Part shown: piece by piece, positions 8,038 through 63,502 of the stretch | Numbering within the stretch: position 1 is the stretch's first letter | How the letters are laid out: each line of letters opens with the position of its first letter | IMG/VR virus record: IMGVR_UViG_3300025728_000001 | Coordinates: 21,817 to 85,816 of that record | Origin: a virus | Length of the DNA stretch: 64,000 nucleotides | Direction: 5' to 3' (one strand) | The notes under the pieces: generated by a model | Database searches by the model: none | What the model was told of the DNA's origin: nothing | The model's input: the letters and a program-made list of their open reading frames with translations, nothing else | Made by a program: the position numbers and the translations under genes

Positions 8038-8046
8038 CTACAAGGA

Positions 8047-8130: not shown

Positions 8131-8181
8131 ATGAACGATTACCCCGCAACGGCTCCCGGCCAGGAGCACGCAAATGGCTGA
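8131..8181 (+). CDS. Possible 16-aa leader peptide
   Basis: An ATG at 8131 opens a 16-codon frame (MNDYPATAPGQEHANG) whose stop overlaps the start of the next gene, and whose leader has CGCCAGAGATAAGGA. It may couple translation into the gene at 8174, which has its own good ribosome site. Weak evidence. Confidence 0.3.
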   Translation: MNDYPATAPGQEHANG

Positions 8182-8524
8182 ATACATGCACATTACCCGC
8201 GAGCTGCTGCAAGGGCTGTATGAGGATCTTGAGCGCGCCGTGCCCGAAATGCCGTCTTTGAAGTCTGACGCCGGCGCCCGTCGCAACTTGATTCGCCTCA
8301 TTCTGGCCCGCCAGCCGTCCGAGCATGTCCGCCCGATTCCGACCACTACGGAGGAACTGGCGGAACAAGCGAAAGCAACGGCCGAACGCCTGCGTCATGC
8401 CGAGCGTTTGTTGCACCGAAGCCTGCCGTTGATCGTCGAAGGTGGGCGCTATATCGAGGCCGGTTCGGTGACTGAATCGGTAGAACGGTTCCTGAAAACT
8501 GCATACCGTGGGGGTGAGGAATGA
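8174..8524 (+). CDS. Hypothetical helical 116-aa protein
   Basis: Begins MAEYMHITRELLQGLYEDLE; AGGAG lies seven bases before the start. It is mostly helical, with ELAEQAKATAERLRHAERLL suggesting a short coiled coil. It ends in an ATGA overlap with the next gene. Not recognised. Confidence 0.6.
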   Translation: MAEYMHITRELLQGLYEDLERAVPEMPSLKSDAGARRNLIRLILARQPSEHVRPIPTTTEELAEQAKATAERLRHAERLLHRSLPLIVEGGRYIEAGSVTESVERFLKTAYRGGEE

Positions 8525-9390
8525 GCACATCAAACGGACCAGTCCGCCACGACATCATGTTCAGCATGTCCGCCGCGAGCCATGAGCGCGTGAATCTGCT
8601 ACTGAGCCAGTGCGGCCACCAAAACCTCAATCTGTTGCTGGCGCGTGGTCTGGCGCTGGTGCAATGGGTTGAGGATCAGCAAGACCTTGGCCGCACCATT
8701 GGCGCCGTGATTTATGGCGATGAGGGGGTAGACGTCGCGGAACTGGAAGAGCGCCCGGAGCTGTTGAAGCCCCAGCCGCGGCCCCAGTCGCTGACGCAAC
8801 CCAAGGCCGTCACCCCTGCGCCAGAGCCTGAGCTGGCGCCGGTGGTGGAGCCAACCCCAGCCCCAAAGCCTGAGCCGGTGGCTACCCCTGCGCCGGTGAT
8901 CGATCCGGCCAAGCTGGTGGCGCGCCCAAAGACGCCGCCGCCGGTAACGCAGCCGAAATACCGCGCCCCAAGTGGCCGTGAGCAGGTATTGCGCGCCCAT
9001 ATCCCCAATGACCAAGGCCCGGTAAAGACTCATACGTGGGTGGCATGGCGCTGCAAGATGGATAAGCGCCTGCCGCCGATCCTCATTGGTGATGACCGTG
9101 CGCTACCGGGTGAGCTGAGCCTTGAGCACCTTCCAGAGCTTGAGCGCATGCTGGTGGACGCTCGCCACGCCACGCACTTCCAACTGACTAAAGAGAACTA
9201 CCTTGCCTATTACGCCTTCCAGCATGGCAATGGAAAGCGCGGCGGCTGGTGCTATGTCGAAGAAGACTCGATGCAGCTGCGCAAGGATGACCATTGCGAC
9301 AGCGGGATGTTTGCGATTTTCCCGGTGGTGATGGCGGTCGAGTACTTGCGCCGCCTGACCAATCCACGGGCGTCGGTGGCCAGCGCATGA
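8521..9390 (+). CDS. Two-domain protein with proline-rich linker
   Basis: A protein of 289 residues. A small N-terminal helical domain (about 1-80) is joined by a long Pro/Ala/Glu linker (about 85-155, repeated PAPEPE/PTPAPKPEP units) to a C-terminal domain (about 160-289; KYRAPSGREQVLRAHIPNDQ ... RGGWCYVEEDSMQLRKDD). The C-terminal part looks globular. Such architecture suits a tethering or adaptor protein. No family recognised. Confidence 0.6.
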   Translation: MSTSNGPVRHDIMFSMSAASHERVNLLLSQCGHQNLNLLLARGLALVQWVEDQQDLGRTIGAVIYGDEGVDVAELEERPELLKPQPRPQSLTQPKAVTPAPEPELAPVVEPTPAPKPEPVATPAPVIDPAKLVARPKTPPPVTQPKYRAPSGREQVLRAHIPNDQGPVKTHTWVAWRCKMDKRLPPILIGDDRALPGELSLEHLPELERMLVDARHATHFQLTKENYLAYYAFQHGNGKRGGWCYVEEDSMQLRKDDHCDSGMFAIFPVVMAVEYLRRLTNPRASVASA

Positions 9391-27512: not shown

Positions 27513-29807
27513 ATGGCCAGGGCGAAGAAAGAAAAACAGTTGGTGCTCGATGCCGATCCGCGCTGGCCTGCGTTTGTTGCCCGGTATGCCTTCGAACAGT
27601 ACAAGTTCGCCGTCGAAGTGTGCGGCATGGGCATTGTGGGCAAGCCCGTAACGCACCAGCAGAAAGAACTGTTCGATGAGGCCTCGCCCTATGGCTGCCG
27701 GGTGTCGGTGGCGTCTGGCCACGGCTGCTTTGCGCTGGGCACTAAACTCATGCTCGCCAGCGGTGAGCCGATTGCCGTAGAGGACGTGAAGTCTGGCCAG
27801 CGCCTCATGGGCGCCGACGGCTCGCACGCCACCACGGTCCTGGAGCTTAAGCGTGGGCGCCAGGCCATGTACCGGTTCACCTATACCGACGGCACCAGCC
27901 ACACATTCAACGAAGCACACATTCTTTGCCTGGTGGCCATCGCGCCCGATGGTGACGTGGGCGTGGGCGCCGAGATTGAAACGTCCGTAGAGCAGTGGTT
28001 GACCTGGGGGGCGGACAAGCAGGCCCGGTATGCGACCTATCGAAGCGATGCCAAGTCGTTCCGGCGCCCACTGCGCAACCTGTCGGTGTCTCCATACGTC
28101 ATGGGCCAGCGGCTGGCGCTTTCTGGTGAGCTGATCCCCGCCGATTACCTGTACAGCGGCCAGGCGCAACGCCAAGAGCTGCTGGATGGCATGGTGGGGC
28201 GTGCTGGCGCCCAATTCATTAGTGGGAGCGAGGCTGTCACCCGTCAAGTGAGCTGGCTGGCGCGTTCGGTTGGGTACCACTCCAGTGTGGTGCGCCTTGA
28301 GTCCGGCAACTGGCTGGCCAAGATCGATCGGTTGCCTGGCGCGCTGCACTTCGCGATTGCTTCCTGTGAGGCGCTGGGGGAGGGCGACTACTACGGCTTC
28401 ACCCTGGACGGCGACAACCGGCTGCTTGGGCATGACTTCACCGTTCTGCACAACACCGGCAAGACTAGGAGTTTTGGCGTTATAGCGCTTTGGCACCTGC
28501 TCTGCTATCGCAACTCAAACACCTACATCACCGCGCCAAAGCTCAAGACGGTACGGGAGGGTGTCTGGAAGGAAATCACCACACTCAAGGCGCAGATCGA
28601 GAAAGGCCCGCACGCCTGGATTGCGCAATACATCACCATCCAGGCCGAAAAGGTCTACATCAACACCAAGTCGGCTATCTGGTACGTCACGACCCGTACA
28701 GCGCCCCGCGGCTCGCCTGAGAACCTGGCCGGTACCCACGGTGATTACCTCTTATGGATGGCGGATGAGGCGTCAGGCATCCCGGACGAAAACTTTGGTG
28801 TGATCGGTGGCGCCCTCACCGATCCGCGTAACCGTTTCATCATGGCCAGCCAGCCTACCCGTAGCAGCGGGTTCTTTCGTGACTCGCACCACAGTAAGAG
28901 CAAGCGCCAGGGCGGGGCGTGGACAAGCCTCACATTCAGCTCCGAAGAGTCGACGCTGGTTGGTATCGAGTTCATCAAGGAAAAGCTCATCCAGTACGGT
29001 GGGCGCGATGAAATGGAATACCAGATCAAGGTCCGGGGCATGTTCCCGACCAACTCAAGCAAGTACCTGCTCAGCCAGGCAGCCCTTGAGCGCGTCATTG
29101 AAGGCCCGAACGTCATTCTGCCGGGCGAAGCCTATGGTCACCTGATCATCGTCGACGTGGCGGCGGGCGTAGGGCGAGACAAGACCGTGGCCACCCATAT
29201 GAAGGTGATCGGCAACGGCGACCGCATGAGCGCAGACCGGCGCCGGATTGAGGTAGTGGCGGTACCGGTCTACACCAACACCGAAGACTGGACACCGGTG
29301 GCGGTGAAGGTGCTGGACTACGCGGCGCAGTTCTCCAACGTAACGATCATCGTCGACACCAACGGCATGGGTAACCAGTTCCTCAAGCGGCTGATAGAGC
29401 TGTCGGGCGGCGGTATCCATGCCAAGGGCTGTCGCTGGGGTGAATTGCCGTTCAGCAACGAATACCGCAAGCGATTCCTCAATCAGCGGGCGCAAAGCAC
29501 CGTGCACCTGGTTGAGGCGATCAAGGACGGCGTGGTACGTCTGTCGAGCCAGTACAAAAAGGATCTGATCGACCAGGGCAGCCGTATTCCTTACTTCCTG
29601 GACGAGCTGGGGCGATATCACATCGCCCGCAAGCAGGACATGGCCGCCGAGGGTCTGCCATCCCCCGACCTTTTGGACACGCTCGCCATGGCGTTTCTGG
29701 AATCTGCGGACTACGTGCCAGCGCAAGGCGAGGCCGTCAGCCTCAGCACAGACAGGCGCCAGGCCGCACTTGATGCGGCTCGCGAGGCGCTGGCGGGCAT
29801 CACGTAA
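27513..29807 (+). CDS. terL: Terminase large subunit with intein
   Basis: A protein of 764 residues, of which residues 72-314 are an intein; the spliced terminase would be 521 residues, a normal length. After splicing the P-loop becomes SGHG-TGKT. Walker B is LLWMADEAS and the coupling motif ASQPTRSSGF. The RNase H-like nuclease has acidic residues in HLIIVDVAAG, IIVDTNGMGNQ and DLLDTLAMAF. The enzyme drives DNA into the prohead and makes the terminal cuts. Splicing is needed to rebuild the ATP site. The ATG is supported by AAGGA seven bases upstream. Confidence 0.92.
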   Translation: MARAKKEKQLVLDADPRWPAFVARYAFEQYKFAVEVCGMGIVGKPVTHQQKELFDEASPYGCRVSVASGHGCFALGTKLMLASGEPIAVEDVKSGQRLMGADGSHATTVLELKRGRQAMYRFTYTDGTSHTFNEAHILCLVAIAPDGDVGVGAEIETSVEQWLTWGADKQARYATYRSDAKSFRRPLRNLSVSPYVMGQRLALSGELIPADYLYSGQAQRQELLDGMVGRAGAQFISGSEAVTRQVSWLARSVGYHSSVVRLESGNWLAKIDRLPGALHFAIASCEALGEGDYYGFTLDGDNRLLGHDFTVLHNTGKTRSFGVIALWHLLCYRNSNTYITAPKLKTVREGVWKEITTLKAQIEKGPHAWIAQYITIQAEKVYINTKSAIWYVTTRTAPRGSPENLAGTHGDYLLWMADEASGIPDENFGVIGGALTDPRNRFIMASQPTRSSGFFRDSHHSKSKRQGGAWTSLTFSSEESTLVGIEFIKEKLIQYGGRDEMEYQIKVRGMFPTNSSKYLLSQAALERVIEGPNVILPGEAYGHLIIVDVAAGVGRDKTVATHMKVIGNGDRMSADRRRIEVVAVPVYTNTEDWTPVAVKVLDYAAQFSNVTIIVDTNGMGNQFLKRLIELSGGGIHAKGCRWGELPFSNEYRKRFLNQRAQSTVHLVEAIKDGVVRLSSQYKKDLIDQGSRIPYFLDELGRYHIARKQDMAAEGLPSPDLLDTLAMAFLESADYVPAQGEAVSLSTDRRQAALDAAREALAGIT
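27726..28454 (+). other. Intein in TerL P-loop (243 residues)
   Basis: The intein starts with Cys (CFALGTKLML, block A) and ends in HDFTVLHN followed by Thr+1 (block G). Block B is about GTSHTFNEAH (Thr...His), and block F is DYYGFTLDGDNRLLGHDF. It is longer than a mini-intein: the middle (about PYVMGQRLALSG ... RQELLDGMVGRAG ... VSWLARSVGY) looks like a LAGLIDADG endonuclease whose first motif is shrunken and whose second lacks the acidic catalytic residue (LLDGMVGRAG instead of LLDGLxDxDG). Splicing residues look intact; homing activity is probably lost. Confidence 0.85.
28471..28494 (+). repeat. GTTA octad-like repeats in terL
   Basis: GTTTTGGC, GTTATAGC, GCTTTGGC in tandem, just after the intein in the extein. 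They match the window-wide octads but lie in coding sequence, so this copy is the least certain. Confidence 0.35.
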
Positions 29808-36039: not shown

Positions 36040-37629
36040 ATGGCCGACGAAAAGAAACCGAAAAAGAGCTGGCTGGGGTCGCTTAGCGACACCACCAAGC
36101 TTTTGCTGGGCGAGGTGAGCACGGCGCCCGAAAACCGAATGGAAGGCATCAGCACCTTCGACGCTGATTACGTCGGCATTGAAATGCTGTTGGGGTCGAG
36201 TGATCGCCCCGCCCGGTCCCGTTCTGCGATCTATCAGAAGTGGCATTACATGATTCAGGACGGGCTGATCAGCACCATCCTGCGCTTACACGTCCAGATG
36301 GCGCTGGGCGGCCACGAGACGACCGGGGAAACGATCTTTATCGAACCCAAGCCCGGTATCTCGGCGGCGGACAAGAAGGCCGTCGACGAACTGCAATTTA
36401 TCGCCAAGATCCTCAACAAGCACGCGCACGGCATGTGCTTCACCGCCTGTGCCTTCGGGGATGCCTACGCCCGGCTCTACACCCAAAAGGGCGAGGGGAT
36501 GTTTGCCTTCGACAGCGAGCAGCCGTTTGCGCCCCTGGTGCAGGCCTATGAAGAGATTGGCCAGACCGTGGGCTACATCGTCAGTCTCGGGTCGAAGCTG
36601 CAAAGCCGCTTCAATCACCTGGACATGGTGCGTATGCGCATGCCGCGCATGGTGTACCTGCCACAGATGCGCGCCATCGAGAACGCCCAAAAGATCAACC
36701 TGGAAGCCACTCAGCCGCGCGATATGCGGCCATTGCCGGCGCTGGTGGGCGGTTCGTTCCTGGAAGCGGCCGAGGTGGACTACGACAACCTTATGTCCGC
36801 CCTGCGCGGGATGATCGGCCAGCGTATCGCCGGATCGATTGACGAAACCATGATCGGCGCCAACCTCTCCGACATGACGGCGGCGCAACAAAAGCTGTTC
36901 ATGGACTCGCTGGAAAAGATGCTTATCAGCATGAAAACCCGCGCAGAGGATGCCGTGCGCACGGGCCAATACGCCACCTCGCGCAACTTCCACGTCATGC
37001 CGACCTTCAATGAAAAGCAGCTGACGCAAATCAGCTCGTTTCAGGGCGGCTCCAACTCCGGCGCCGGCGCCAACATCGAAGACGTGATGTTCTGCGCCCG
37101 CAAGCTGGCGGGCACGCTGGGCATTGACCTGTCGATGGTGGGCTTCGCTGACCAAATGACCGGGGGCCTGGGTGAGGGTGGCTTTAACCGCACCAGCAGC
37201 CAGGCCGCTGAGCGCTCCCGAATCATCCGCACCGCCTTTATGCAGACGGTGAACGACACCATCGACCGCCACATGCTGGCCAAGACCGGCAAGTGTTGGG
37301 CGGACGATGAACGCCCCTATGACGTGAATTTCTTCGGCTCCATTGCGGCGCTTGAGGCTGAGAAACAGGCCAGCCGAGAACGATCGATCAATGCCGGCGC
37401 CATGCTGCTCCAGGCTATGGATGGCATGCGAACCATGGGCCTGCCGCAAGACGTTTGCGAGCAGTTCCTGGCCTCAATGATGGAAATCGACGCCGACAAG
37501 GCCAAGGTGTTCGCCAAAGGGATCAAGGATGCAAAACCGCCAGCGCCTGATATGGGCGGTGGCTTCGGCGGTGGTGATGACAACCCGCAACCGCTACTGC
37601 CGAACGGCACTACAGAGAGAGAGGAATGA
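36040..37629 (+). CDS. Portal protein
   Basis: A protein of 529 residues. Position (after terminases) and size fit a portal; features include RSAIYQKWHYMIQDGLISTI, an aromatic stem segment (GMFAFDSEQPFAPLVQAYEE), a helical hub (LMSALRGMIGQRIAGSIDET) and a Gly-rich low-complexity C-terminus (GGGFGGGDDNPQPLLPNG). The portal ring is the DNA entry channel of the capsid. Assignment is by context and composition. Confidence 0.7.
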   Translation: MADEKKPKKSWLGSLSDTTKLLLGEVSTAPENRMEGISTFDADYVGIEMLLGSSDRPARSRSAIYQKWHYMIQDGLISTILRLHVQMALGGHETTGETIFIEPKPGISAADKKAVDELQFIAKILNKHAHGMCFTACAFGDAYARLYTQKGEGMFAFDSEQPFAPLVQAYEEIGQTVGYIVSLGSKLQSRFNHLDMVRMRMPRMVYLPQMRAIENAQKINLEATQPRDMRPLPALVGGSFLEAAEVDYDNLMSALRGMIGQRIAGSIDETMIGANLSDMTAAQQKLFMDSLEKMLISMKTRAEDAVRTGQYATSRNFHVMPTFNEKQLTQISSFQGGSNSGAGANIEDVMFCARKLAGTLGIDLSMVGFADQMTGGLGEGGFNRTSSQAAERSRIIRTAFMQTVNDTIDRHMLAKTGKCWADDERPYDVNFFGSIAALEAEKQASRERSINAGAMLLQAMDGMRTMGLPQDVCEQFLASMMEIDADKAKVFAKGIKDAKPPAPDMGGGFGGGDDNPQPLLPNGTTEREE

Positions 37630-41155: not shown

Positions 41156-41476
41156 ATGGCAGACGACATGCTCAACACGGACCTGCTCTTTCGAATGATT
41201 GCCCATTGGGTGGGTACCCAGCCGAACAAGTACTACGGATCGACCTATGGCGCGCCGACCGAGGACTTGCTGCAAAAGCCCCTCAGTTCGCCCATTGCCG
41301 ACGCCTACCTGGCCAAGATGCGCGAAGACATTCCCGTTATCGCTGCGCTGCCACCGGGCACGATCAACATGTACACAGACAACGATGGGCTTGACCGAAA
41401 GACCATCTATATCGATATCAACGGCTCCTACGTGAGTCTGGCGGACCTGGGGGACGTGAAACGTGGCAGTTACTAA
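41156..41476 (+). CDS. Small tail/baseplate-region protein
   Basis: A protein of 106 residues. It begins MADDMLNTDLLFRMIAHWVG and holds NKYYGSTYGAPTEDLLQKPL and a C-terminal strand-rich half. Located directly before baseplate J and overlapping it by 14 bases; similar small proteins in this position are baseplate-wedge parts. No specific match. Confidence 0.5.
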   Translation: MADDMLNTDLLFRMIAHWVGTQPNKYYGSTYGAPTEDLLQKPLSSPIADAYLAKMREDIPVIAALPPGTINMYTDNDGLDRKTIYIDINGSYVSLADLGDVKRGSY

Positions 41477-42857
41477 AGACGACTTCATTCAAAGCGCGAT
41501 TAATGAAATCGCCAGCTACCCCACTATCGCCATGCGGTACCAGATTGGTGATCCGCTGATTACGCAGGGGCTCGCGTCGATGGCGGCCATGCTGGCGGAC
41601 GTGAGCAACCAGGTGGAGGTGACCGCCGGCGAGCCCTTCACCAAGGCCCGCGACGTGACGGTACGCAGTGATGCGGCCGTTAAAGGCATCTTGCCCTTCG
41701 CTACGCCCGCCATCGCCGCCATCAAGGTTACGAACGGCGCCCTGGTGCCGGTCCAAGTGCTGGCGGGGCGAGTGCTCCAGGATGCGGCTGGGCGCTATTG
41801 GTTGGTTACGTCGGGCGTGAACCTGGCCGCCGGCGCTATCGGTTACCTGACGGCCAAGCAAGTCAGCGCTCGCCGCTTCACGCACCAGGTGACCGCGTTC
41901 ATTCCGTTCTACTCGATTCCCCTCAGCCAGCCCGAGGTGGGGTTTATTGCCAACGTGCTGGTGGACACTTTCGAGTACTCCACCAACTTCGCCAACATCC
42001 TGGACGGCGAACGGGTTTACAACATCAAGTCCAACGAAGTCAGCGAGCTGAGCCTGCAATTCGGCATTGCCGGGCTGTCCGGTTATCAGCCGGCCGTGGG
42101 CGCGCAGATCAAAATCACCGTGCAGGACACAGAGGGCGCTGTGACGCTCTCCACCGGCATGAAGTTCTATTTTGAGTACACCGGTGGCGCGAGTGATGCG
42201 CTGTTGGCCATGGAACTGTCAGAGGTCAGCCAGGCCGGCGCCAACCCGATGGACATCACGACTATGCGCGAGGTGTGTTCCTACCCCGGCATTTACGACG
42301 ACAGCGCCGTGTTCGGCTCCAACTTCGATTTTGTGGTGCGCAAGGCGGTGTCCCCGGTGACGTTCCTCAGTATCTGGAACGAAGCCAAGGAGGAAGCGGT
42401 TCGCGGCGCCAGCGTGGACAACATCAACACGCTGTTTGTGGCGGCGCGCAAGGCCGGCACCACACAGCCGGTGCTGCAATCGCAAATCACGGCGGCGATT
42501 CAGCGCGCCGATAACAGCTACAAGATCAAGTACGTGCCCGTGATCGATGTCGTGGTGCCCATGGTGGTCACCCTCACCATTCCATCGGTCTATGACTCCG
42601 GCGCCGTCGAGCAGCAAGTAAGCACGATCCTGCTCGGCCAATACGGCGAGGACTCGGCCTGGGCCAAACGGGGCGAGGCGCAGATTCTGGAAAAAGACGT
42701 GTACGCGCTGATGGTCGACAACAACGTGACGGCACTCTCTGCGCGCCTGGGTAACCTGACGGTCGACAGTATTGGGGATGATGACGACGTATTGCCCGAA
42801 CACTACCGCTACATCACGCCCGAAAGCCTGGTGATCAACATCCGCGAGGCGGACTGA
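41463..42857 (+). CDS. Baseplate J / gp47-like protein
   Basis: A protein of 464 residues. The central half has baseplate-J features (VLAGRVLQDAAGRYWLVTSG, GYLTAKQVSARR, EVGFIANVLVDTFEY) and the typical domain with RGASVDNINTLFVAARKAGT and VPMVVTLTIPSVYDSGAVEQ ('xVxVxVxxxxG...'). It forms the wedge that joins the fibres to the tail tube end in contractile-tailed phages. Position before the tail-I-like protein is usual. Confidence 0.7.
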   Translation: MAVTKDDFIQSAINEIASYPTIAMRYQIGDPLITQGLASMAAMLADVSNQVEVTAGEPFTKARDVTVRSDAAVKGILPFATPAIAAIKVTNGALVPVQVLAGRVLQDAAGRYWLVTSGVNLAAGAIGYLTAKQVSARRFTHQVTAFIPFYSIPLSQPEVGFIANVLVDTFEYSTNFANILDGERVYNIKSNEVSELSLQFGIAGLSGYQPAVGAQIKITVQDTEGAVTLSTGMKFYFEYTGGASDALLAMELSEVSQAGANPMDITTMREVCSYPGIYDDSAVFGSNFDFVVRKAVSPVTFLSIWNEAKEEAVRGASVDNINTLFVAARKAGTTQPVLQSQITAAIQRADNSYKIKYVPVIDVVVPMVVTLTIPSVYDSGAVEQQVSTILLGQYGEDSAWAKRGEAQILEKDVYALMVDNNVTALSARLGNLTVDSIGDDDDVLPEHYRYITPESLVINIREAD

Positions 42858-54165: not shown

Positions 54166-54807
54166 ATGACAGTTATCGCGGTGATGAATCAGAAGGGCGG
54201 CGTGTGCAAAACCACCACTTGTGTCGGGCTGGCGCGGGCGCTAGATCTGGATGAGCGGGACGTGGTGCTGGTTGACTCGGATCCGCAGGGCAGCATGGTC
54301 GACTGGGCGGCGGCGAATGATTCGCAGCCCATTCAGGTGTACGTGATTGAGCGCACGAAGTTGGAGCGAGAAATTCCAAAGCTCACCAATGAATTCGTAA
54401 TCATCGACGGTACAGCGAAGGCCGCCGATCTGGCCTTGAAGACAATCAATGTCGCGGACCTGATCTTGATCCCCGTGCAGCCTTCCCCGCTTGACGTGTG
54501 GGCCACCAGCGAAATGGTGGACATGATTCACGACCGGATTGAAGAACAGAAAGCCGCGGGCGAGACGCCTGTACGCGCTGCCTTTATCGTTAGTCGCTCA
54601 TCAAGTCGGGCAAAGCTGAGCAAGAAAATTTCCGCGACTCTGGCGGGTTATGGCTTTCCAGTGCTGGAGGCTCGACTTTCACAGCGCCAAGAGCACCCGA
54701 ACTCTCATATGTCCGGGAAAACCCCTTTGGACACGCAGCCGCGCGGCCCAGCAGCGGCGGACCTTCGGGCTATCAAGGATGAAGTGTTGGCGCTCTTGGC
54801 GTCGTAA
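54166..54807 (+). CDS. parA: ParA-family partition ATPase
   Basis: A protein of 213 residues, the small ParA type (no N-terminal HTH). The deviant Walker A reads KGGVCKTTT, with Cys in place of the last invariant Gly before the catalytic Lys; the signature Lys of the KGG motif is kept. VVLVDSDPQGSMVDWA is the Walker A-prime Asp block, FVIIDGTAKAADL the Walker B, and VQPSPLDVWA the switch. ParA forms ATP-dependent patterns on the nucleoid that move plasmid copies apart. The Cys comes from a TGC codon; it may be a real variant of this lineage. The start at 54166 is fixed by the M-T-V-I-A-V-M-N start of the fold. Confidence 0.85.
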   Translation: MTVIAVMNQKGGVCKTTTCVGLARALDLDERDVVLVDSDPQGSMVDWAAANDSQPIQVYVIERTKLEREIPKLTNEFVIIDGTAKAADLALKTINVADLILIPVQPSPLDVWATSEMVDMIHDRIEEQKAAGETPVRAAFIVSRSSSRAKLSKKISATLAGYGFPVLEARLSQRQEHPNSHMSGKTPLDTQPRGPAAADLRAIKDEVLALLAS

Positions 54808-55274: not shown

Positions 55275-55432
55275 CCCTCTCCCACCTGCGTTAGCAAGGT
55301 CAAGATAGTGAAGCTATTTAAAGCCAGCCGATGCGGCCGCGTCAATTGGTGATTTGGCGCCACGCAAGCAAACCGCCGGCCGGGACTAGGGGAATCGGGC
55401 GGTATCGTGGCTGCTTTCAGGGAGCGGCTTCG

Positions 55433-58400
55433 ATGACAGACGTTTTTAGCAATCTCCAGAGCGCCGCGCATGCCGGCGCCTTTGGCATGGGCTCGCACGC
55501 ACAGCCCACGCCCGCGCAGATCAAGGCCGGCAACTACGCCAAGGGCAGCTTTCGCCTGCACGGCCTGCGCATCACCATTGAAACCCCCATGTTCCAGTCC
55601 CGCCGGGGCAAAGAAGACGGTAAGCCCTGGTCGATCACCTGCATGGCGCATTACGGCTATGTGAACGGCACCAAGGGCGCCGACGGTGACGCCGTGGACG
55701 TGTTCGTGGGACCAGTGCCCGAGAGCCTGCGCGTGTACGTGGTCAACCAGAACGCCAAGGACGGCTCATTCGATGAGCACAAGGTGCTGCTGGGCTTTAT
55801 CGACCAGGACCAGGCCTGCACCGCCTACATGAACTCTTACGAAAAGGGTTGGACCGGCCTGGGCAGTGTCGCGGCCTGCACCATCAAGCAATTCAAGTAT
55901 TGGCTCAAACACGGGGATCTAAGCCAGCCCCTCTCCCCCGACTTACCCAATATTCCGCAAGATGAGGCGTTGAGCATGACTGATGTATTTGCGCGCTGGG
56001 GCGCTGACAACCTACCCGTAGGGCAGACCGTGGGCGCCTTGCTGTACGAGCTGCGCCGCTCCGATCCGGACGGCCTGATGTTCGACAGCGCCACCATGGC
56101 CGATATCACTGAGAGCCTGGCCGACGACGGCACAATGCTCGATGCCATGGTGATCGAGTACAAGCAGTTTGAGCGCAAGGCTGGCCAGCTGCTCAAAGTG
56201 ATGCAGAACGTAGGCGGTGAGGTGAAGGCCGACGCTGTGGAAGTCAGCAAGCCGTTCAAGAGCAAGGGCACCACCCAAGTAGCCATGCTGTTCACCATGA
56301 GCGACGGCCAGAGCGTGTCGGTGTTCTTCCACAACCCGGACAGCACGCCCAACAAGCTCACGCCAGCCGACGAGCTGATCAGCTGGAAGTGGGTACAGAA
56401 CAAGAGGGACATCACCGCTGTGGTGGCGCCTGAGAGCGGCCAAGACCTCAACCCGCGCATTGTGTGCCGCCGGATCATGGCGCTGATTCAGAAGAACAGC
56501 GCCAAGTTCATCAAGGCGAACGAAGGCAAGACCGCCCGCACCGCCGCGCTCGATGAGCTGAAAGCCAGTGTGGAAAGCAAAACCGGCGAGCTGGCGGCAC
56601 TCGACACCCAAATCAGCGAACTACAGGCGCAGCTGGCTGAGAAGAAGGCCGCCCCGGTGGTGCCAGTCGCTCCAGTGGTCGAGCCGGTAGCCGTTGAGCC
56701 TGTTGCAGTGCTGGCGTCGACACAATGGCCAGCAGACGCCAAGGCGATGGCTACAGCGTTGAAGCGCCTGGCCACTGATTCCCCGACACCTATCCGGATC
56801 ATCCGAGCGACTAAGGGCGAGCGTCAAAGTGTCCAGGTGATCACTGAGCGAGGTGAGTTTGCCACGTTCACTACCATCGTCGCCCTGAAGACGCCCGAGG
56901 GTGCTGCATCGTTCTGGTATGTCTCCGCGACTGACTCCGACAAGCCGTCGGCCCCGCTTGATCGCCAGGAGCGCGATTACTTTGCAGCGCTGGTCAAAGC
57001 TACGAACGAACTCCCGCGCGCTGTAGTCGCTGAGCCTGCCCTTGCCCCTGTCGTCGAGCCTGAGCCGGTATCGACCGATCCTGTTGTCCCCGTCAGCACC
57101 GCCAGCGTCATCCTGGAGGACTACGCCGACGTTGCAGCGCTTGGCGAAGCCGTCGTGCTCAGCACCGGTTCCGAAAACGTGTACCTGGTCAAGGATGGCG
57201 TCCAGTACATGACGAAGTTGCTCAACACAGACGTGTATGAGCCGAAAGTGGGCGAAGTGGTCGACCTGTCGGGCGTGGTTGATCCGTTCGCCGTGTCCGA
57301 TGTAGATGAGTCGTCCGCAATTCTTCAAGGTCCAGCCGGGCCGGTGACTGTCGCCAAGACCAAATATGTAGAAACCGGTGAATGGGGCGTGAGTTGGGCC
57401 AGCACCCACCTCGCTACCGCTGCAAGCAAGGCCGAAGGTGTTGCCATTGCTGAGCGCGTCATTGCGTCGGGCGCTGACAACATCGACGGCATGCGTGCGG
57501 CGGTTGCCGTGACTACCCCCGAGCCGGTAGCAGAGCCAGAATCTGACCCGTATGAGGAAATTAACACCGCCCTCACGGCCGTGGGCTTTACCCGCGTGCA
57601 GCAAAATGACTGGGCTTCGCCGGCGTACCCTCTTGAAAATGGAGGGACTAAAGGTTTCAACGTGCGCGCCGGCGGGGAACCTGTGAGCATGCGCCTGAGC
57701 TTCCGTGTCACTTTTCCGGGGATTACAGGGGGCGGCCAGGAGGTCGGTACCTATCAAGATATCCCTTCGCTCATGGCTGCACTCGCTGCCGAGCAAGCCA
57801 AGGTCGCCCCGGCGCCAGTTGCTGAGCCTGACGAAACCGAAGACACCGGCGTTATCGAAGCCGAAGGCCGAGACAACACCGTCAAAACCGCCAAGGGCAC
57901 CAAGGTCGTGACCGGCTTCAAGGTGATCGAAGCGAAGAACCTGATCATCAGCCACGAGACTGACGGCACGATAAACCCTGACTACCCGGCTGAAATCCAG
58001 CCGCGTGACCGGGCGCGGGCGACATCGCAGGCGTGGGTGCAAAAGACAGCACGCAATCTTGACCCGGACAGCCTGGGGCGCACTCAGCGTGCCGACAGTG
58101 GCGCGCCTATCGTTGGTACCGACCGTGTGGTCGAATCGGGCAACGGCCGCGCCATGGCAGTCCGTGAGGCCTACCGCATTGGCCAGGCCGATGAATACCG
58201 GGAGTGGTTGCTGGAAAACGCGGAGTACTTCGGCGTAGACCCGGCCAAGATTCAGCGCATGAAAGCGCCGGTGCTGGTGCGTGTGCGTAAAACCGAGGTG
58301 AATCGGGTGGAGTTTGCCGTGGAATCCAACCAGGACGACAAGCTGGCGATGACGGCCACCGAGAAGGCCCGCAGCGATGCCAAGCGCCTGGACACCGCCA

Positions 58401-59359
58401 TGCTGTCGAAGCTGGCAGACGGCGACCTCAATAGCGCGGCCAACCGTGACTTTGTGGCGGCCTTCCTGCAATCGCTGGGCGATGCCGAGGCGGCGCAGTA
58501 CCTGACCAGCGACGGTAAACCAACGTCGAGCCTGATCAGTCGCCTACAGGCCGCGCTGTTTGCTGGTGCCTACTCAGACGATCGGTTGCTGGAAATGACC
58601 GCGGACCAGGCCAAGCCTGAGATTGCCAACATCGTTTCGGCCTTGAACAGCGCAGCGCCTGACTTCATGCGGGCCAAGGAACAGGACCGGATCGGCGCCG
58701 AGAAAGCGGGCGAGCAGGTCACCGACTCCCTGGAGCTGTCGCTTAACCAGGAGGCGGTCAACGCCATCATTGGCGCTACCAACGTGCTGCGCCAAGCCAA
58801 AGAGGCCGGCATGGGCCTGGACGAGTTCCTACGCCAGGGCGACATGTTTGGCGGCACGGATCCGGCTGTAGCAGCCATGGCCGTGTTTATCAGTGCCAAC
58901 AACCGCAGCGCCAAACGCATGAGCACCGCCTTCAAGGCCATGGCGCAGTTCGTTGAGAGCGAGAACGTGCGCAAGCAGACCGCGAGCCTGTTTGGTGATG
59001 AGCCTGTCAGCTTTACCGATATCGTCGGCGCGGCTAACCGCAAGCTGGAACAGGAATATGGCGAGGGGCTGTTTGCCATCGACCAGACCGACATGTTCAG
59101 CCCGGCGCCGCCAGCCGCTCCACCGGCGCCGGTTATCGAGCCAGAAGAGCCGAACGAGGATGACGCCTTGCAGAAGGCCAAGACCTATCTGGACGACATC
59201 ATTGGCGGCACCACCGACCTGGGCAGCCCTGGCGACGTGCTCAAAGAGCTTGAGAGCATTTACGCGGCCTATGGCGAGGACAAGCTGAGCGAGCTGTTCA
59301 TTGATGCCTCTAACGCCTTCCGGGACTACGCGTTGAAGGCTACCGCCGGCGCGTTCTAA
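55433..59359 (+). CDS. Polyvalent anti-restriction-type protein with InPase and DdrB-ParB domains
   Basis: A protein of 1,308 residues; the start at 55433 follows AGGGAG. Residues about 30-160 resemble the pyrophosphatase-like (InPase) domain of polyvalent proteins, with GADGDAVDVFVG (82-93) as the metal motif. A coiled coil (about 365-405) is next. Residues about 430-530 repeat the DarA-N-like fold (WPADAKAMATALKRLATDSP). Residues about 810-1000 are the DdrB-ParB domain: NLIISHETDGTINPDYPAEI, RDRARATSQAW, VESGNGRAMAVREAYR, ESNQDDKLAMTATEKARSDA. P1 DdrB is an internal virion protein of the Dar system. Such proteins are thought to enter the cell with the DNA and counter restriction. The largest gene in the window. 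Confidence 0.75.
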   Translation: MTDVFSNLQSAAHAGAFGMGSHAQPTPAQIKAGNYAKGSFRLHGLRITIETPMFQSRRGKEDGKPWSITCMAHYGYVNGTKGADGDAVDVFVGPVPESLRVYVVNQNAKDGSFDEHKVLLGFIDQDQACTAYMNSYEKGWTGLGSVAACTIKQFKYWLKHGDLSQPLSPDLPNIPQDEALSMTDVFARWGADNLPVGQTVGALLYELRRSDPDGLMFDSATMADITESLADDGTMLDAMVIEYKQFERKAGQLLKVMQNVGGEVKADAVEVSKPFKSKGTTQVAMLFTMSDGQSVSVFFHNPDSTPNKLTPADELISWKWVQNKRDITAVVAPESGQDLNPRIVCRRIMALIQKNSAKFIKANEGKTARTAALDELKASVESKTGELAALDTQISELQAQLAEKKAAPVVPVAPVVEPVAVEPVAVLASTQWPADAKAMATALKRLATDSPTPIRIIRATKGERQSVQVITERGEFATFTTIVALKTPEGAASFWYVSATDSDKPSAPLDRQERDYFAALVKATNELPRAVVAEPALAPVVEPEPVSTDPVVPVSTASVILEDYADVAALGEAVVLSTGSENVYLVKDGVQYMTKLLNTDVYEPKVGEVVDLSGVVDPFAVSDVDESSAILQGPAGPVTVAKTKYVETGEWGVSWASTHLATAASKAEGVAIAERVIASGADNIDGMRAAVAVTTPEPVAEPESDPYEEINTALTAVGFTRVQQNDWASPAYPLENGGTKGFNVRAGGEPVSMRLSFRVTFPGITGGGQEVGTYQDIPSLMAALAAEQAKVAPAPVAEPDETEDTGVIEAEGRDNTVKTAKGTKVVTGFKVIEAKNLIISHETDGTINPDYPAEIQPRDRARATSQAWVQKTARNLDPDSLGRTQRADSGAPIVGTDRVVESGNGRAMAVREAYRIGQADEYREWLLENAEYFGVDPAKIQRMKAPVLVRVRKTEVNRVEFAVESNQDDKLAMTATEKARSDAKRLDTAMLSKLADGDLNSAANRDFVAAFLQSLGDAEAAQYLTSDGKPTSSLISRLQAALFAGAYSDDRLLEMTADQAKPEIANIVSALNSAAPDFMRAKEQDRIGAEKAGEQVTDSLELSLNQEAVNAIIGATNVLRQAKEAGMGLDEFLRQGDMFGGTDPAVAAMAVFISANNRSAKRMSTAFKAMAQFVESENVRKQTASLFGDEPVSFTDIVGAANRKLEQEYGEGLFAIDQTDMFSPAPPAAPPAPVIEPEEPNEDDALQKAKTYLDDIIGGTTDLGSPGDVLKELESIYAAYGEDKLSELFIDASNAFRDYALKATAGAF

Positions 59360-59379
59360 CCCTTCACCCACTGACCAAG

Positions 59380-59403
59380 AAGCCCGCCGAGTGCGGGCTT
59401 TTT
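59380..59403 (+). terminator. Intrinsic terminator
   Basis: A perfect 8-bp stem (AAGCCCGC / GCGGGCTT), a 5-base loop and a T run. Confidence 0.88.
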
Positions 59404-59497
59404 GCTGGCCGAAAAGGTGCAAAGTCCGGCCTGGATGCGGAATAAAACGCCACGACACTGGGGGCCAGAACAAAAAAATCGCCAGTGGAGCTCTGCA

Positions 59498-60358
59498 ATG
59501 GAATCGTTCGTTACCCGCACCCTGACCATTAACGGTCAAACCATCCGCACCGCAGTACGCGCCGGAAAGCCGCACTTAACGCCGCTGCTGGTCTGTAACG
59601 GTATCGGCGCCAGCCTGGAGCTGGTATTGCCGTTCGCGAAGGCGCTGGACCCCGATCAGGGCGTCATAGCCTTCGACGTGCCGGGCGTGGGCGGATCCTC
59701 GACGCCGTGGCTGCCCTACAGCTTTAGCAGCCTGGCCAAGCTGGTGACCCGGATGCTCGACTATCTTGACGTCGGCCAGGTGAACGTCATCGGCTTGAGC
59801 TGGGGCGGGTTTCTCGCGCAGACCTTCGCCCACGAATACCCTGGCCGCTGCAAGAAACTCATCCTTGCCGCCACCTCGGCCGGCCTGGTTAGCGTTATGC
59901 CGTCCCTGAAAGTCCTATCGCTCATGGCGAGCCCGCGGCGCTACACCGACCCTACCCATGGGGCGAGGATCGCGCCGGATATCTATGGGGGCGAGTTCCG
60001 CCGCAACCCTGAGCTGGCGGCTGCGCATGCCGAGAAAATGCAGTCGACGGGCGGCCTGGGCTATTACTACCAAATGGCTGCCGTCTATTTGTGGACGTCG
60101 ATCCACTGGCTGTACACGCTCAAGCAGCCGACCCTGGTACTGGCCGGCTCAGACGATCCGATCATTCCCCTGGTCAATATGCAGACGCTGGCCAACCTCA
60201 TCCCCAATGCGCGGCTACACGTCGTCAACGATGGTCATCTGTTCTTGCTGACCCAGCGCGAAACCCTGGCGCCACTGATCATGTCGTTTCTGTCTGAGGC
60301 CACACAGGAACAGTCGTGTGTGGGCGCTGCTGAGCCCGCCGGCCTTTGCGCTCTGTAG
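59498..60358 (+). CDS. phaZ: Intracellular medium-chain-length PHA depolymerase
   Basis: A protein of 286 residues; Pseudomonas PhaZ is about 283. From memory of the P. putida enzyme, near-identical stretches include GQTIRTAVRAGKPHLTPLL, VIAFDVPGVGGSSTP, ARMLDYLDVGQVNVIGLSWG-type (here TRMLDYLDVGQVNVIGLSWG), KKLILAATSAG and MASPRRYTDPTH. It has the alpha/beta-hydrolase nucleophile GLSWGG, the acid in LAGSDDPIIPLVNM, and the His of NDGHLFLL. It hydrolyses stored polyhydroxyalkanoate in granules to hydroxyacids. In the phage it is a single-gene unit between terminators, with GGAG seven bases before its start. No other PHA genes are present, so it must act on host granules. Confidence 0.92.
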   Translation: MESFVTRTLTINGQTIRTAVRAGKPHLTPLLVCNGIGASLELVLPFAKALDPDQGVIAFDVPGVGGSSTPWLPYSFSSLAKLVTRMLDYLDVGQVNVIGLSWGGFLAQTFAHEYPGRCKKLILAATSAGLVSVMPSLKVLSLMASPRRYTDPTHGARIAPDIYGGEFRRNPELAAAHAEKMQSTGGLGYYYQMAAVYLWTSIHWLYTLKQPTLVLAGSDDPIIPLVNMQTLANLIPNARLHVVNDGHLFLLTQRETLAPLIMSFLSEATQEQSCVGAAEPAGLCAL

Positions 60359-60373
60359 CCAACCTGGCGTCAC

Positions 60374-60398
60374 AAGCCCGCCGCTTGCGGGCTTTTTT
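60374..60398 (+). terminator. Intrinsic terminator after phaZ
   Basis: A perfect 8-bp stem (AAGCCCGC / GCGGGCTT), a 5-base loop and six T residues. Confidence 0.88.
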
Positions 60399-60413
60399 GT
60401 GGGTATATCTAAC

Positions 60414-60461
60414 GCATTAGCGTTTTAACATTTATGAGTTAAAGCGTTAAAGAGTTGTTGA
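60414..60461 (+). repeat. Octad array at promoter A
   Basis: Six phased 8-mers: GCATTAGC, GTTTTAAC, ATTTATGA, GTTAAAGC, GTTAAAGA, GTTGTTGA. The last overlaps the -35 TTGACC of the promoter below, so a bound protein would block RNA polymerase. An almost identical layout recurs at 62253. Confidence 0.7.
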
Positions 60462-60486
60462 CCAGTAGGCACGACGTGCCTATTAT
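60458..60486 (+). promoter_or_regulatory. Strong promoter A with palindrome in the spacer
   Basis: TTGACC (60458-60463), 17-base spacer, TATTAT (60481-60486). The spacer carries the perfect palindrome AGGCACG A CGTGCCT (reaching into the first base of the -10 box), so a dimeric repressor could bind between the boxes in addition to the octad protein. The transcript leader of about 45 bases is repeated at the second promoter. Confidence 0.75.
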
Positions 60487-60535
60487 CGCTCCAAGCCGAA
60501 CGAAGCGGCGCCTAACAGCAACGGAGCACGAAGCC

Positions 60536-61429
60536 ATGACTAAGACCGCCGACCACTACCGCCAGCAAGCCGTTGAGCTGTTTGAAGCGGGCTTCACTTC
60601 CAAGGCGGGCCAAAAGCGCGCCCTTGATGTCTTGAATCGTGCTCACGAAATCCTGACTCGCTCGATTCAAGCGTTCTTCCTGGCCAAGCCTCACGCCGAG
60701 CGCACTGAGGCTGAATCAGCGGTTTACTGGGGCATGGCAGACTTGCACAACTGGAAGGCCAAGCACACCGCCGACACGCTGGCCGTGTACCCGCAAGCCG
60801 CCAGCATCTGCGCAGAAATCGAAGCGCTTGTAGAACTGCGCGCTGCAATCAAGGGTGCTGAAATCGTCAAGGTCCAGCGCGGCGAGTGTGGCGAGCTGGA
60901 TCTGGCCATTATCGCTCTGGCACCGGCTCCTATCACTGGTGCCGCAATCGCCAAAATTTCCGCCTCTCTGAAAACCATCTTCGCCCCAATGGACGCCAAG
61001 GTGCTGGAGGCCGCTAAGGAATGGGCTGTAGGTCGCGTTGCTGCCCTGAAAGAGTTCAAGGCCTCTGACGAGTACGCCGCGATCCGTCGTGACGCTTCCA
61101 AGCTGTACGAACGCCTGCACGCAATCGCCGGCGGTAAGACCTGGTACGCCGTATTCAACGGCACCGGTTCGGTTTACGTCTCGGAGTTCATGACAAAGAA
61201 CTGCGCAGCTACCGCCTACAAACGTAACGCCAGCATCACCACCAAGCTGGTCAAGGCGGGCGTGGCCGAAGTGGTAAGCGAGGAATACACCTACACCAAC
61301 GACGGCTTTAACGGGGTGTTCATCGTCAACACTAACGCCGGCTCCAAGCGCGTATCCATCGATACCATTTATGCCGGCGGCTACAACATTCAGTGCCTGC
61401 ACCTGCGCGTGCTGGTGAAGGTCAAGTAA
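60536..61429 (+). CDS. Hypothetical 297-aa protein
   Basis: Begins MTKTADHYRQQAVELFEAGF. The N-terminal half is helical (LDVLNRAHEILTRSIQAFFL); the C-terminal half is strand-rich (YVSEFMTKNCAATAYKRNAS ... RVSIDTIYAGGYNIQCLHLR). It is the product of the strongest-looking promoter in the window, so it may be an abundant early or plasmid-state protein. Not recognised. Confidence 0.65.
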   Translation: MTKTADHYRQQAVELFEAGFTSKAGQKRALDVLNRAHEILTRSIQAFFLAKPHAERTEAESAVYWGMADLHNWKAKHTADTLAVYPQAASICAEIEALVELRAAIKGAEIVKVQRGECGELDLAIIALAPAPITGAAIAKISASLKTIFAPMDAKVLEAAKEWAVGRVAALKEFKASDEYAAIRRDASKLYERLHAIAGGKTWYAVFNGTGSVYVSEFMTKNCAATAYKRNASITTKLVKAGVAEVVSEEYTYTNDGFNGVFIVNTNAGSKRVSIDTIYAGGYNIQCLHLRVLVKVK

Positions 61430-61665: not shown

Positions 61666-61684
61666 TAGGCCATTTCCGTCCATC

Positions 61685-61712
61685 GCCCCTTAGTTGGGGC
61701 TTTGCCAGTACC
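61685..61712 (+). repeat. Intergenic CCCC-TTNATT-GGGG / CAGTAC module 1
   Basis: GCCCC tagtt-type loop GGGGC hairpin, then TTTGCCAGTACC. The same hairpin plus CAGTAC tail recurs at 61931, 62796, 63130 and (variant) 63455, each before a small gene. Confidence 0.6.
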
Positions 61713-61752
61713 GCCAGAACGATCTGGCTCAACCCAGGCAAGAGGTTTCACC

Positions 61753-61908
61753 ATGAAATTCACAGCAAGCGAGCCAGCAGCGTCCGGCATGTTCCCGGTA
61801 GTCAGCGAGTGCGGGCATGACATGGGTTCGTTCAAGACCCAGGGCGAGGCGCAGAAGAAGGCCGCCGACCTGAATGCCGAATACGAGCGGATGAGCGAAG
61901 CGCTCTAG
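61753..61908 (+). CDS. Small 51-aa protein
   Basis: Begins MKFTASEPAASGMFPVVSEC; ends helical (AQKKAADLNAEYERMSEAL). The start at 61753 is chosen because GAGG lies just upstream. Not recognised. Confidence 0.5.
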   Translation: MKFTASEPAASGMFPVVSECGHDMGSFKTQGEAQKKAADLNAEYERMSEAL

Positions 61909-61930
61909 ATTCGCCGTGTGATCAACGCCA

Positions 61931-61958
61931 AGCCCGCTCATGCGGGCTTTGTCAGTAC
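61931..61958 (+). repeat. Intergenic hairpin / CAGTAC module 2
   Basis: AGCCCGC / GCGGGCT hairpin followed by TTGTCAGTAC, then the CGCCAGAGATAAGG leader of the next gene. Confidence 0.6.
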
Positions 61959-61978
61959 AACCCGCCAGAGATAAGGCC

Positions 61979-62200
61979 ATGTCGTTCATCACGTCCGCTG
62001 TACTTGTTGCATCGATCTGCATGCCTGGTAAGGCCTGCATCGTTAAGGAGGTCGCCCGCTTCACCAATGGCGACACCGGGAAACAGTTCTGTATCGCTAC
62101 GGCGGGTTCCGTTAACAGCGTGGGGGATGAGGTAGGCGAAAGCCTTTACTACTGCGTCGACCCGAACACAGGGCAAAGGCTCTTCGCCTCGCTCAAGTGA
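61979..62200 (+). CDS. Small 73-aa protein with a hydrophobic start
   Basis: Begins MSFITSAVLVASICMPGKAC, which could be a weak signal or membrane start, followed by IVKEVARFTNGDTGKQF and four cysteines in total. The leader has CGCCAGAGATAAGG. Function unknown. Confidence 0.5.
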   Translation: MSFITSAVLVASICMPGKACIVKEVARFTNGDTGKQFCIATAGSVNSVGDEVGESLYYCVDPNTGQRLFASLK

Positions 62201-62204
62201 CCTG

Positions 62205-62227
62205 AGCCCCTTCGCTGGGGCTTTTTT
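62205..62227 (+). terminator. Intrinsic terminator
   Basis: AGCCCC / GGGGCT stem with a 6-base loop and a T run. Confidence 0.8.
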
Positions 62228-62252
62228 GTGGGCGTCTACTCAGCGCTGTAGC

Positions 62253-62292
62253 GTCTTAACTTTTTTACGTTAAAGCGTTAAAGAGTTATTGA
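62253..62292 (+). repeat. Octad array at promoter B
   Basis: GTCTTAAC, TTTTTTAC, GTTAAAGC, GTTAAAGA, GTTATTGA: five 8-mers, the last overlapping the -35 box, as at 60414-60461. Confidence 0.7.
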
Positions 62293-62317
62293 CCGATAGG
62301 CACGACATGCCTATTAT
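62289..62317 (+). promoter_or_regulatory. Strong promoter B, near-copy of promoter A
   Basis: TTGACC (62289-62294), 17-base spacer with AGGCACG A CATGCCT (one change from the perfect palindrome), TATTAT (62312-62317). The following ~50-base leader is closely similar to that of promoter A, so the two regions are a duplication. Confidence 0.75.
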
Positions 62318-62366
62318 CCTCCCAAGCCGAACGACACGGCGCCCCACAGCAGCGGAGCAAGACGAC

Positions 62367-62777
62367 ATGAACGCAAACATCGGAAAACTCAATAGCGGCA
62401 AGTGCTACGTCTACCTGAACGGCTACCGCGCTGAGCCGTTTTGGGGCACCGAAGCCGAATGCGAGTCGGCCATCGTTGCGCAAGGTGTTGCCGAGCCAAT
62501 CCCGGTGTTTGTCGACGGCGTGGATATGACCACCAGCACGACGGGCGTTGCAGCCCAGGCAGTGGCCGCCGAACCGATCAAGAAGGCCCGGCGCGCAACA
62601 CGCGAGTACGTCATGACCTTCAAGGCGGCGGACGGCTCCGAGGACGACACTAGCGGGCATGTGGAGAATGTTTTCGCAAAAGACCGTAACGAGGCGATGC
62701 GCAAAGGCCGCGACATCGTGCGGGAGAACTCAGGCCCATACGGCCCAAAGATTCGCGTCAGCGCCCGACTGGCCTAG
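62367..62777 (+). CDS. Hypothetical 136-aa protein
   Basis: Begins MNANIGKLNSGKCYVYLNGY. It has an N-terminal beta-like part and a basic helical C-terminal part (FAKDRNEAMRKGRDIVRENS). Product of the second strong promoter. Not recognised. Confidence 0.6.
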   Translation: MNANIGKLNSGKCYVYLNGYRAEPFWGTEAECESAIVAQGVAEPIPVFVDGVDMTTSTTGVAAQAVAAEPIKKARRATREYVMTFKAADGSEDDTSGHVENVFAKDRNEAMRKGRDIVRENSGPYGPKIRVSARLA

Positions 62778-62795
62778 CCGGCCCGCCAACCTCAA

Positions 62796-62822
62796 GCCCC
62801 TTCATTGGGGCATTGCCAGTAC
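62796..62822 (+). repeat. Intergenic hairpin / CAGTAC module 3
   Basis: GCCCC-TTCATT-GGGGC hairpin, then ATTGCCAGTAC. Confidence 0.6.
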
Positions 62823-62843
62823 TACCTGACGGAGAATGAGCAG

Positions 62844-63110
62844 ATGACCACCAAAATCGAAACCCTCAAAGAAGAAATCAAAGGCTGGTTGAGCAATGCC
62901 GATGACGTAACTATCGCGGTTCACAACCGTGAAGCTTTCGCCAAGAACGCTGTTAAATCGATTGGCGAAGCGGTGAATGAATTCCTCGTCAATGATGCTG
63001 CTTACAGCACGCTGGCCATGTACCAGACTGATTTCATTCGCGAAATAGCCTTGAGCAAGGGCGCTGACGATGCCCGCATTATTTTGCTTTGGAAGGCATG
63101 CAAGCTCTAA
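62844..63110 (+). CDS. Small 88-aa protein
   Basis: Begins MTTKIETLKEEIKGWLSNAD. Helical, acidic; no motif recognised. Part of the small-gene series at the right end. Confidence 0.55.
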   Translation: MTTKIETLKEEIKGWLSNADDVTIAVHNREAFAKNAVKSIGEAVNEFLVNDAAYSTLAMYQTDFIREIALSKGADDARIILLWKACKL

Positions 63111-63129
63111 GACAACCCGCCCGTTGCGC

Positions 63130-63157
63130 GCCCCTTAATTGGGGCTTCGTCAGTACC
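63130..63157 (+). repeat. Intergenic hairpin / CAGTAC module 4
   Basis: GCCCC-TTAATT-GGGGC hairpin, then TTCGTCAGTACC. Confidence 0.6.
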
Positions 63158-63176
63158 AACATAAGGAGATTCACCC

Positions 63177-63437
63177 ATGCCGCCACGTAAGCAGATGTCA
63201 TTGAAGCAAATGGAAGTCCAGGCCAAGGCCTTGTGCTTCGACTGGAACGAAAAGCACCCGAGCGGAACCATGGTCAGCTATGAGTCTGTGTTGGGTAGTG
63301 GCGAAACCCATCGCTGCCGAACCAATGGCAAGGCGTTTGTATCGAGCTGCGAAGCCGTGATTTTCATCGAGCGCGTATCGGGCTACGTCTCCCTGGAGCA
63401 CTGCACCGCCGTTGCGGATGAGGCCGTAGGCGCATAA
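63177..63437 (+). CDS. Small 86-aa protein
   Basis: Begins MPPRKQMSLKQMEVQAKALC after AAGGAG. A beta-rich C-terminus (FVSSCEAVIFIERVSGYVSL) suggests a small domain. Not recognised. Confidence 0.55.
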   Translation: MPPRKQMSLKQMEVQAKALCFDWNEKHPSGTMVSYESVLGSGETHRCRTNGKAFVSSCEAVIFIERVSGYVSLEHCTAVADEAVGA

Positions 63438-63454
63438 CCGCCGGCGGAAGGAAC

Positions 63455-63484
63455 AACCCCCTTGATTGGGGGTTTTCTGGTATC
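63455..63484 (+). repeat. Intergenic hairpin module 5 (variant tail)
   Basis: AACCCCC-TTGATT-GGGGGTT hairpin, then TTCTGGTATCC in place of CAGTACC. Confidence 0.5.
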
Positions 63485-63502
63485 CACAAAGGGAAGTCCG
63501 AA

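Follow-up and report, generated by a model that had tools for sequence, protein, structure and literature searches.

A phage-type gene for an intracellular poly(3-hydroxyalkanoate) depolymerase in a probable Pseudomonas phage-plasmid and its relatives in unrelated phages

We analysed a 64,000-nt stretch of viral DNA (positions 21,817 to 85,816 of the 85,816-bp IMG/VR record IMGVR_UViG_3300025728_000001; hereafter, the window), which carries a gene, phaZ, for an intracellular poly(3-hydroxyalkanoate) (PHA) depolymerase. The encoded protein belongs to an established enzyme family; a phage gene for it is a new function among auxiliary metabolic genes, with its own viral clade. It is a metabolic gene of cellular origin situated in a genuine phage genome, and the PhaZ of the hosts forms its sister clade, as is expected of an auxiliary metabolic gene. 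We consider it probable that phaZ is such a gene (a moron) and that its product, a predicted depolymerase of medium-chain-length PHA (mcl-PHA), mobilises the granules of the host in infection. A preliminary description of the window had drawn attention to this single gene, which proved to belong to a family with members in several unrelated phage groups. The elements of the phaZ locus are as follows.

59376..59404, plus strand: intrinsic terminator 5' of phaZ, closing the transcript of an antirestriction gene (hairpin, -19.5 kcal/mol, z -3.67)
59487..59490, plus strand: GGAG ribosome-binding site, 7 nt 5' of the phaZ ATG (direct sequence reading)
59498..60358, plus strand: phaZ, intracellular PHA depolymerase of phage type, 286 aa (TIGR02240, residue comparison, AlphaFold2 model)
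60374..60400, plus strand: intrinsic terminator 3' of phaZ (hairpin at 60374-60394 followed by a T-run)

The phaZ reading frame starts with the ATG at 59498, and its stop codon ends at 60358. An alternative in-frame TTG at 59402 would lengthen the protein; the ATG is preferred because the alignments of homologues begin there and because GGAG lies 7 nt before it. Both this ribosome site and the two flanking terminators had been described previously and were found again here. The terminators that bracket phaZ are near-identical, the upstream one being a near-copy of the downstream one. A sigma-54-like motif at 59406-59421 was considered as a promoter and discarded, as the motif occurs 15 times in the window versus 9 expected.

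The assignment of the gene to PhaZ, and the resemblance to the Pseudomonas enzyme on which it was originally based, were both upheld. The product matches the curated NCBIfam equivalog TIGR02240 over residues 4-270 with 425.6 bits (E = 8e-128; curated cut-off, 250.6), which is far beyond chance, while the models for 3-oxoadipate lactonase, macrolide esterase and short-chain-length PHA depolymerase scored far below their own cut-offs and were rejected. It is 67% identical to three chromosomal Pseudomonas copies and up to 73% identical to the best phage copies. All three motifs noted earlier are present, namely GLSWGG (Ser101), AGSDDP (Asp220) and DGHLF (His247), so that the triad is intact, and in the alignment these residues correspond to the triad Ser102/Asp221/His248 of P. 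putida PhaZ (PMC12504323). Asn34 is the counterpart of Asn35, which is essential in the P. putida enzyme (PMC12504323) and is part of the FNGIG loop; the window copy retains NGIG and has Cys for the leading Phe. The N-terminus, MESFVTRTLTINGQT, leads straight into the first strand, and neither the sequence nor the structural model revealed a secretion signal, no signal-peptide program having been used.

The gene had been proposed as a new auxiliary metabolic gene, of a kind that most phages lack, and a search of 50,697 deposited phage genomes revealed no match to the window PhaZ above about 32% identity. Likewise, no earlier report of a phage-borne phaZ was found in the open-access literature, preprints and most subscription journals being outside the scope of that search. 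In IMG/VR, the window protein retrieved 4 contigs, and an alignment retrieved 42 contigs (53-73% identity). Thus, 42 further viral contigs carry a phage-type phaZ, and they fall into some seven or eight groups with few genes in common. These groups were defined from shared-protein counts and PHROG hallmarks; their boundaries are approximate, and several contigs are short or were merely sampled. Phage hallmark genes were found in representative contigs, and little gene content is common between the groups, which are listed here.

G006, G007: 86-91 kb myoviruses with a tail sheath
G012, G015 and about 18 short contigs: 49-kb group, with capsid protein relatives in Klebsiella and Mannheimia phages
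G008 and probable relatives: 48 kb, portal phrog_146
G004: 116-kb phage, 47% GC
G014, G016: 41% GC
G009: 54-kb lambda-like phage with a J-type tail protein and some genes in common with the 49-kb group
G010, G011, G013: phiKZ-like jumbo phages with RNA polymerase beta subunits or the DNA polymerase of that group
The window phage, separate from the other groups

Ten other phage copies were tested against TIGR02240, and all exceeded its cut-off (291-477 bits). Identity among phage PhaZ proteins goes down to 51%, as compared to 82% for chromosomal copies. One contig retrieved by a pattern match (L153) was rejected, as tblastn found no phaZ in it. In contig L036 (2085-2714), the frame of a viral phaZ has just 209 aa, although the similarity extends to residue 265; this is possibly a broken copy or a sequencing error.

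A phylogeny, which the preliminary description had suggested as a check, places the gene among PHA depolymerases, in a clade that is associated with phages and lies outside that of chromosomal PhaZ. The chromosomal copies, taken from 33 Pseudomonas genomes, form a tight clade. In the tree with beta-proteobacterial outgroups, support was 97/96 for this clade and 97/93 for a clade containing all viral copies and four stray Pseudomonas copies. In a first tree, with more distant outgroups, every viral copy also lay outside the chromosomal clade, yet that clade stood among the viral branches. Recent capture from the present host was discarded, given the position of the window copy in the viral clade; the approximately unbiased (AU) test nevertheless leaves room for a grouping of the window copy with chromosomal PhaZ (p = 0.24). 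The same test rejected a viral clade from which the stray Pseudomonas copies were excluded (p = 3e-6). When viral contigs were searched with chromosomal PhaZ, no chromosomal-type copy was found, only phage-type copies and one of outgroup type. The latter is in a 280-kb jumbo contig (L144, IMGVR_UViG_2974641675_000001) that has two RNA polymerase beta subunits and is nearest to Burkholderia phage FLC9. Its PhaZ (7971-8786) adjoins the RNA polymerase subunits, is 48% identical to the chromosomal query, scores 291 bits against TIGR02240 and carries the outgroup-type residues Ala and Gly; it looks like an independent acquisition.

The stray copies L046 and L113 lie on megaplasmids (of P. serbica and P. 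silesiensis, the latter plasmid being pPL1, from a plastics landfill), and L047 and L048 on contigs of P. fluorescens PS833 and P. lini. No phaC was found beside any of the four, and each of the three stray-copy genomes searched also has an ordinary chromosomal PhaZ. They look like genes that have passed between phages and hosts. The related copies point to viral PhaZ as an old, virus-adapted branch of the enzyme found across many unrelated, uncultured phages.

The viral genes are under purifying selection. For 235 pairs, the median ratio of nonsynonymous to synonymous substitution rates (dN/dS) is 0.115 and the highest 0.288; many of these pairs come from the 49-kb group and are thus not independent. 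The value for chromosomal PhaZ is 0.076. The GC content at third codon positions of phaZ rises with the overall GC content of the phage DNA around it (r = 0.94, a value that is unchanged when about one copy per group is used), ranging from 37% in a phage of 41% GC to 79% in the window phage. The gene has probably been long resident in these phages and kept functional. No homologues of PhaC1, PhaC2 or PhaD were found on the phaZ contigs examined, and therefore the viral genes are not carried-over host pha clusters.

Presence and absence of phaZ follow the pattern of an accessory gene that is gained and lost in real phage genomes. To the left and right of phaZ, the jumbo contig G011 and Noxifer, a phiKZ-like Pseudomonas phage of P. 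fluorescens SBW25, are collinear (64-90% protein identity); at the site where G011 has phaZ and a 116-aa frame, Noxifer has two small, unrelated genes, 81 and 82. Similarly, in the 49-kb group phaZ is present at 12 of the 39 loci around the capsid gene, and others have a different gene in the slot, some of the phaZ-less loci ending early at a contig end. This pattern argues against an assembly error. It also bears on the idea that a host gene fragment was captured by chance, or entered a mis-assembled or transducing contig, and has no selected role. The gene is host-like, and IMG/VR contigs are metagenome assemblies, as that idea would have it; however, copies occur in several unrelated phage groups, none with host phaC genes, the swap for accessory genes in the Noxifer-like genome is clean, the base composition fits each phage, and dN/dS is low (0.115). 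Chance capture or contamination is already contradicted by these data, and we regard it as very improbable.

The AlphaFold2 model of the window PhaZ, for which 29 phage-type and related sequences served as input, shows an alpha/beta-hydrolase capped by helices (mean predicted local distance difference test score 88.7; confidence is low only beyond residue 269). In PhaZ, a lid domain comprising residues 133-192 covers the active site; in the model, the lid helices, 137-196, lie between core strands. The best matches among solved structures were esterases and lactonases, including an acyl-homoserine-lactone hydrolase, with the poly(3-hydroxybutyrate) depolymerase PhaZ of Bacillus thuringiensis ranking lower. 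Ser101 and the Asn-Gly-Ile-Gly loop are retained in 43/43 viral copies, and the catalytic Asp and His in every viral copy whose alignment extends that far. At three positions, the phage-type residues of the window copy (Phe105, Pro135 and Met181) differ from the Ala, Gly and Val of chromosomal PhaZ. Phe105 and Pro135 are found in all 43 aligned viral copies and the four stray Pseudomonas copies, while Ala105 and Gly135 are found in 33/33 chromosomal copies, and in the six outgroup sequences residue 105 is Ala or Gly and residue 135 is Gly. The count for Phe105 is partly biased, as this residue was present in one search pattern; none of the patterns in the alignment search included Pro135. The lid and hinge (67 positions) hold 17 of the 36 positions that discriminate viral from chromosomal copies, which is more than expected (p = 0.002; for the lid alone, p = 0.08). 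In the host enzyme, the hinge change S184F nearly abolishes depolymerase activity and raises esterase activity (PMC12504323).

Because of this lid and hinge divergence and the S184F effect, a changed substrate is the main rival explanation: a PhaZ-derived hydrolase with a remodelled lid would act on another ester (a membrane lipid, a lactone signal or an antimicrobial ester) in place of PHA granules. The replacements beside the nucleophile (Phe105) and in the lid (Pro135), which set the viral enzymes apart from chromosomal PhaZ and all six outgroups, and the general esterases and lactone hydrolase nearest in structure are in line with it. In contrast, the TIGR02240 score lies far above the equivalog cut-off, with the other hydrolase models far below theirs; the window copy retains Ser183, the residue mutated in S184F, which is alanine in 23 viral copies; the carriers are phages of PHA-making bacteria; and the Phe105 contrast was in part ascertained through the search. 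A change in substrate or regulation relative to host PhaZ is possible from the residue differences, and we judge that a shift to such other substrates is unlikely.

A second alternative concerns the beneficiary and has to be weighed against the DNA that surrounds phaZ. As claimed earlier, this DNA is that of a phage, which also encodes tail fibres and an endolysin-like protein in addition to the following features.

27513..29807, plus strand: terminase large subunit, interrupted by a Hint (intein-like) domain (phrog_2; PF05203)
36040..37629, plus strand: portal protein, which marks the contig as phage (phrog_1497, 1e-128)
41463..42857, plus strand: baseplate protein (phrog_1369, 4e-96)
54169..54807, plus strand: ParA-family ATPase (Pfam)
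55331..59359, plus strand: upstream neighbour of phaZ, of antirestriction type, with InPase, DarA_N and ddrB-ParB domains fused in a single 1342-aa protein (Pfam)

By DNA similarity, the record comes closest to non-mobilizable Pseudomonas plasmids of 81-95 kb, namely CP048608.1 from P. fluorescens DR133, pKF715C from P. putida and NZ_CP070504.1 from P. atacamensis, and it is therefore most likely a phage-plasmid of Pseudomonas; the ParA-family ATPase suggests a plasmid-like prophage state. These plasmids have structural, replication or antirestriction DNA in common with the window phage (75-81% identity). By sequence search, pKF715C and CP048608.1 lack phaZ, and in these two the slot 3' of the antirestriction gene holds a ParA or a phosphoadenosine phosphosulfate reductase-family gene; phaZ is not among the annotated genes of NZ_CP070504.1.

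In the second alternative, the depolymerase would serve the host: the phage-plasmid would carry it for lysogenic conversion, speeding the use of PHA in starvation, and not for the lytic cycle. This alternative overlaps the preferred explanation with regard to the enzyme and differs from it with regard to who benefits. The position of phaZ as a stand-alone unit between two terminators would suit it, as would ParA, the deposition of the relatives as Pseudomonas plasmids, and the four phage-type copies on Pseudomonas plasmids or in other Pseudomonas contigs. However, the same clade occurs in phiKZ-like jumbo phages, of which the known members are lytic and in which a prophage state would not pay. 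We consider a gene kept for the host's sake to be a minority prospect.

Three further observations were made in this DNA. The insert in the terminase gene is Hint/homing-endonuclease-associated, and the gene on plasmid NZ_CP070504.1 is annotated similarly. A 163-nt direct repeat, 77% identical, occurs at 60377-60539 and 62208-62370 and contains a terminator; within it, a promoter-like site at 60458-60486 overlaps the palindrome TAGGCACGACGTGCCTA, which is also present at 62297-62313, and the repeat looks like a repressor-controlled promoter module before two small genes. Finally, a 39-nt module, consisting of a terminator-like hairpin and then a CAGTACC-like stretch, is found five times between small genes at 61684-63494, and its core has four matches in the window versus 0.13 expected.

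According to the explanation that we prefer, breakdown of host granules for the phage, the enzyme would bind mcl-PHA granules of the host during infection or in the plasmid-prophage state, and its Ser-His-Asp triad would, as the known biochemistry of the family leads one to expect, hydrolyse the polyester and release (R)-3-hydroxyalkanoic acids. Through acyl-CoA synthetase and beta-oxidation of the host, these acids could then yield acetyl-CoA and reducing power for phage replication, and the phage-type copy would shift the regulated PHA cycle of the host toward net breakdown. TIGR02240 was found in 53 of 59 sampled Pseudomonas genomes, and therefore the presumed host group likely makes PHA. 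The granule substrate, the expression of the gene, its timing and the benefit to the phage are ones that we infer. Several points weigh against this explanation. Besides the divergence of the lid and hinge and the effect of S184F, the 100 bases that separate phaZ from the first terminator (59400-59498) showed no sigma-70-like promoter; enzyme activity, expression and the role in infection are predictions from sequence; we infer the host solely from the relatives of the phage; and it is not evident why a second copy should be needed, as hosts already own PhaZ. For this last reason, a viral copy probably brings its benefit through its dose, its timing or its independence of host control.

The closest known system is chromosomal PhaZ, encoded in the phaC1-phaZ-phaC2-phaD cluster and studied in the model P. 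putida KT2440 (PMC12504323), which has the same equivalog family, triad, Asn-Gly-Ile-Gly loop, fold and length and is about 65-67% identical. In contrast, the phage copies lie outside its tight clade, stand alone without phaC or phaD, have a changed lid and hinge and are far more diverse. Genes for PHA synthesis (phaC, phbB and others) have been reported in phages from PHA-producing mixed cultures and were called auxiliary metabolic genes (PMC12013262). Those genes belong to the synthesis side, and phaZ or a depolymerase is not mentioned there, whereas we describe a breakdown gene with a viral clade of its own. Intracellular mcl-PHA breakdown has been described as largely a Pseudomonas-specific trait (PMC12504323).

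Phages probably often tap the PHA energy store of their hosts. A wider proposal, which we find plausible and put forward tentatively, is that a dedicated viral class of PHA depolymerase, whose remodelled lid would escape host control of the PHA cycle, recurs in phages of soil Pseudomonas and, separately, in a jumbo phage of Burkholderia type; forced melting of granules would then be a common, unrecognised strategy, exchanged among unrelated phages. Laboratory strains, for example P. putida KT2440 and derivatives lacking its pha genes, would allow the idea to be tried. For bioplastic recycling work, the viral branch provides dozens of new, diverse sequences of predicted mcl-PHA depolymerases. 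That this branch extends from plasmid prophages to phiKZ-like jumbo phages suggests that storage granules are a resource for phages.
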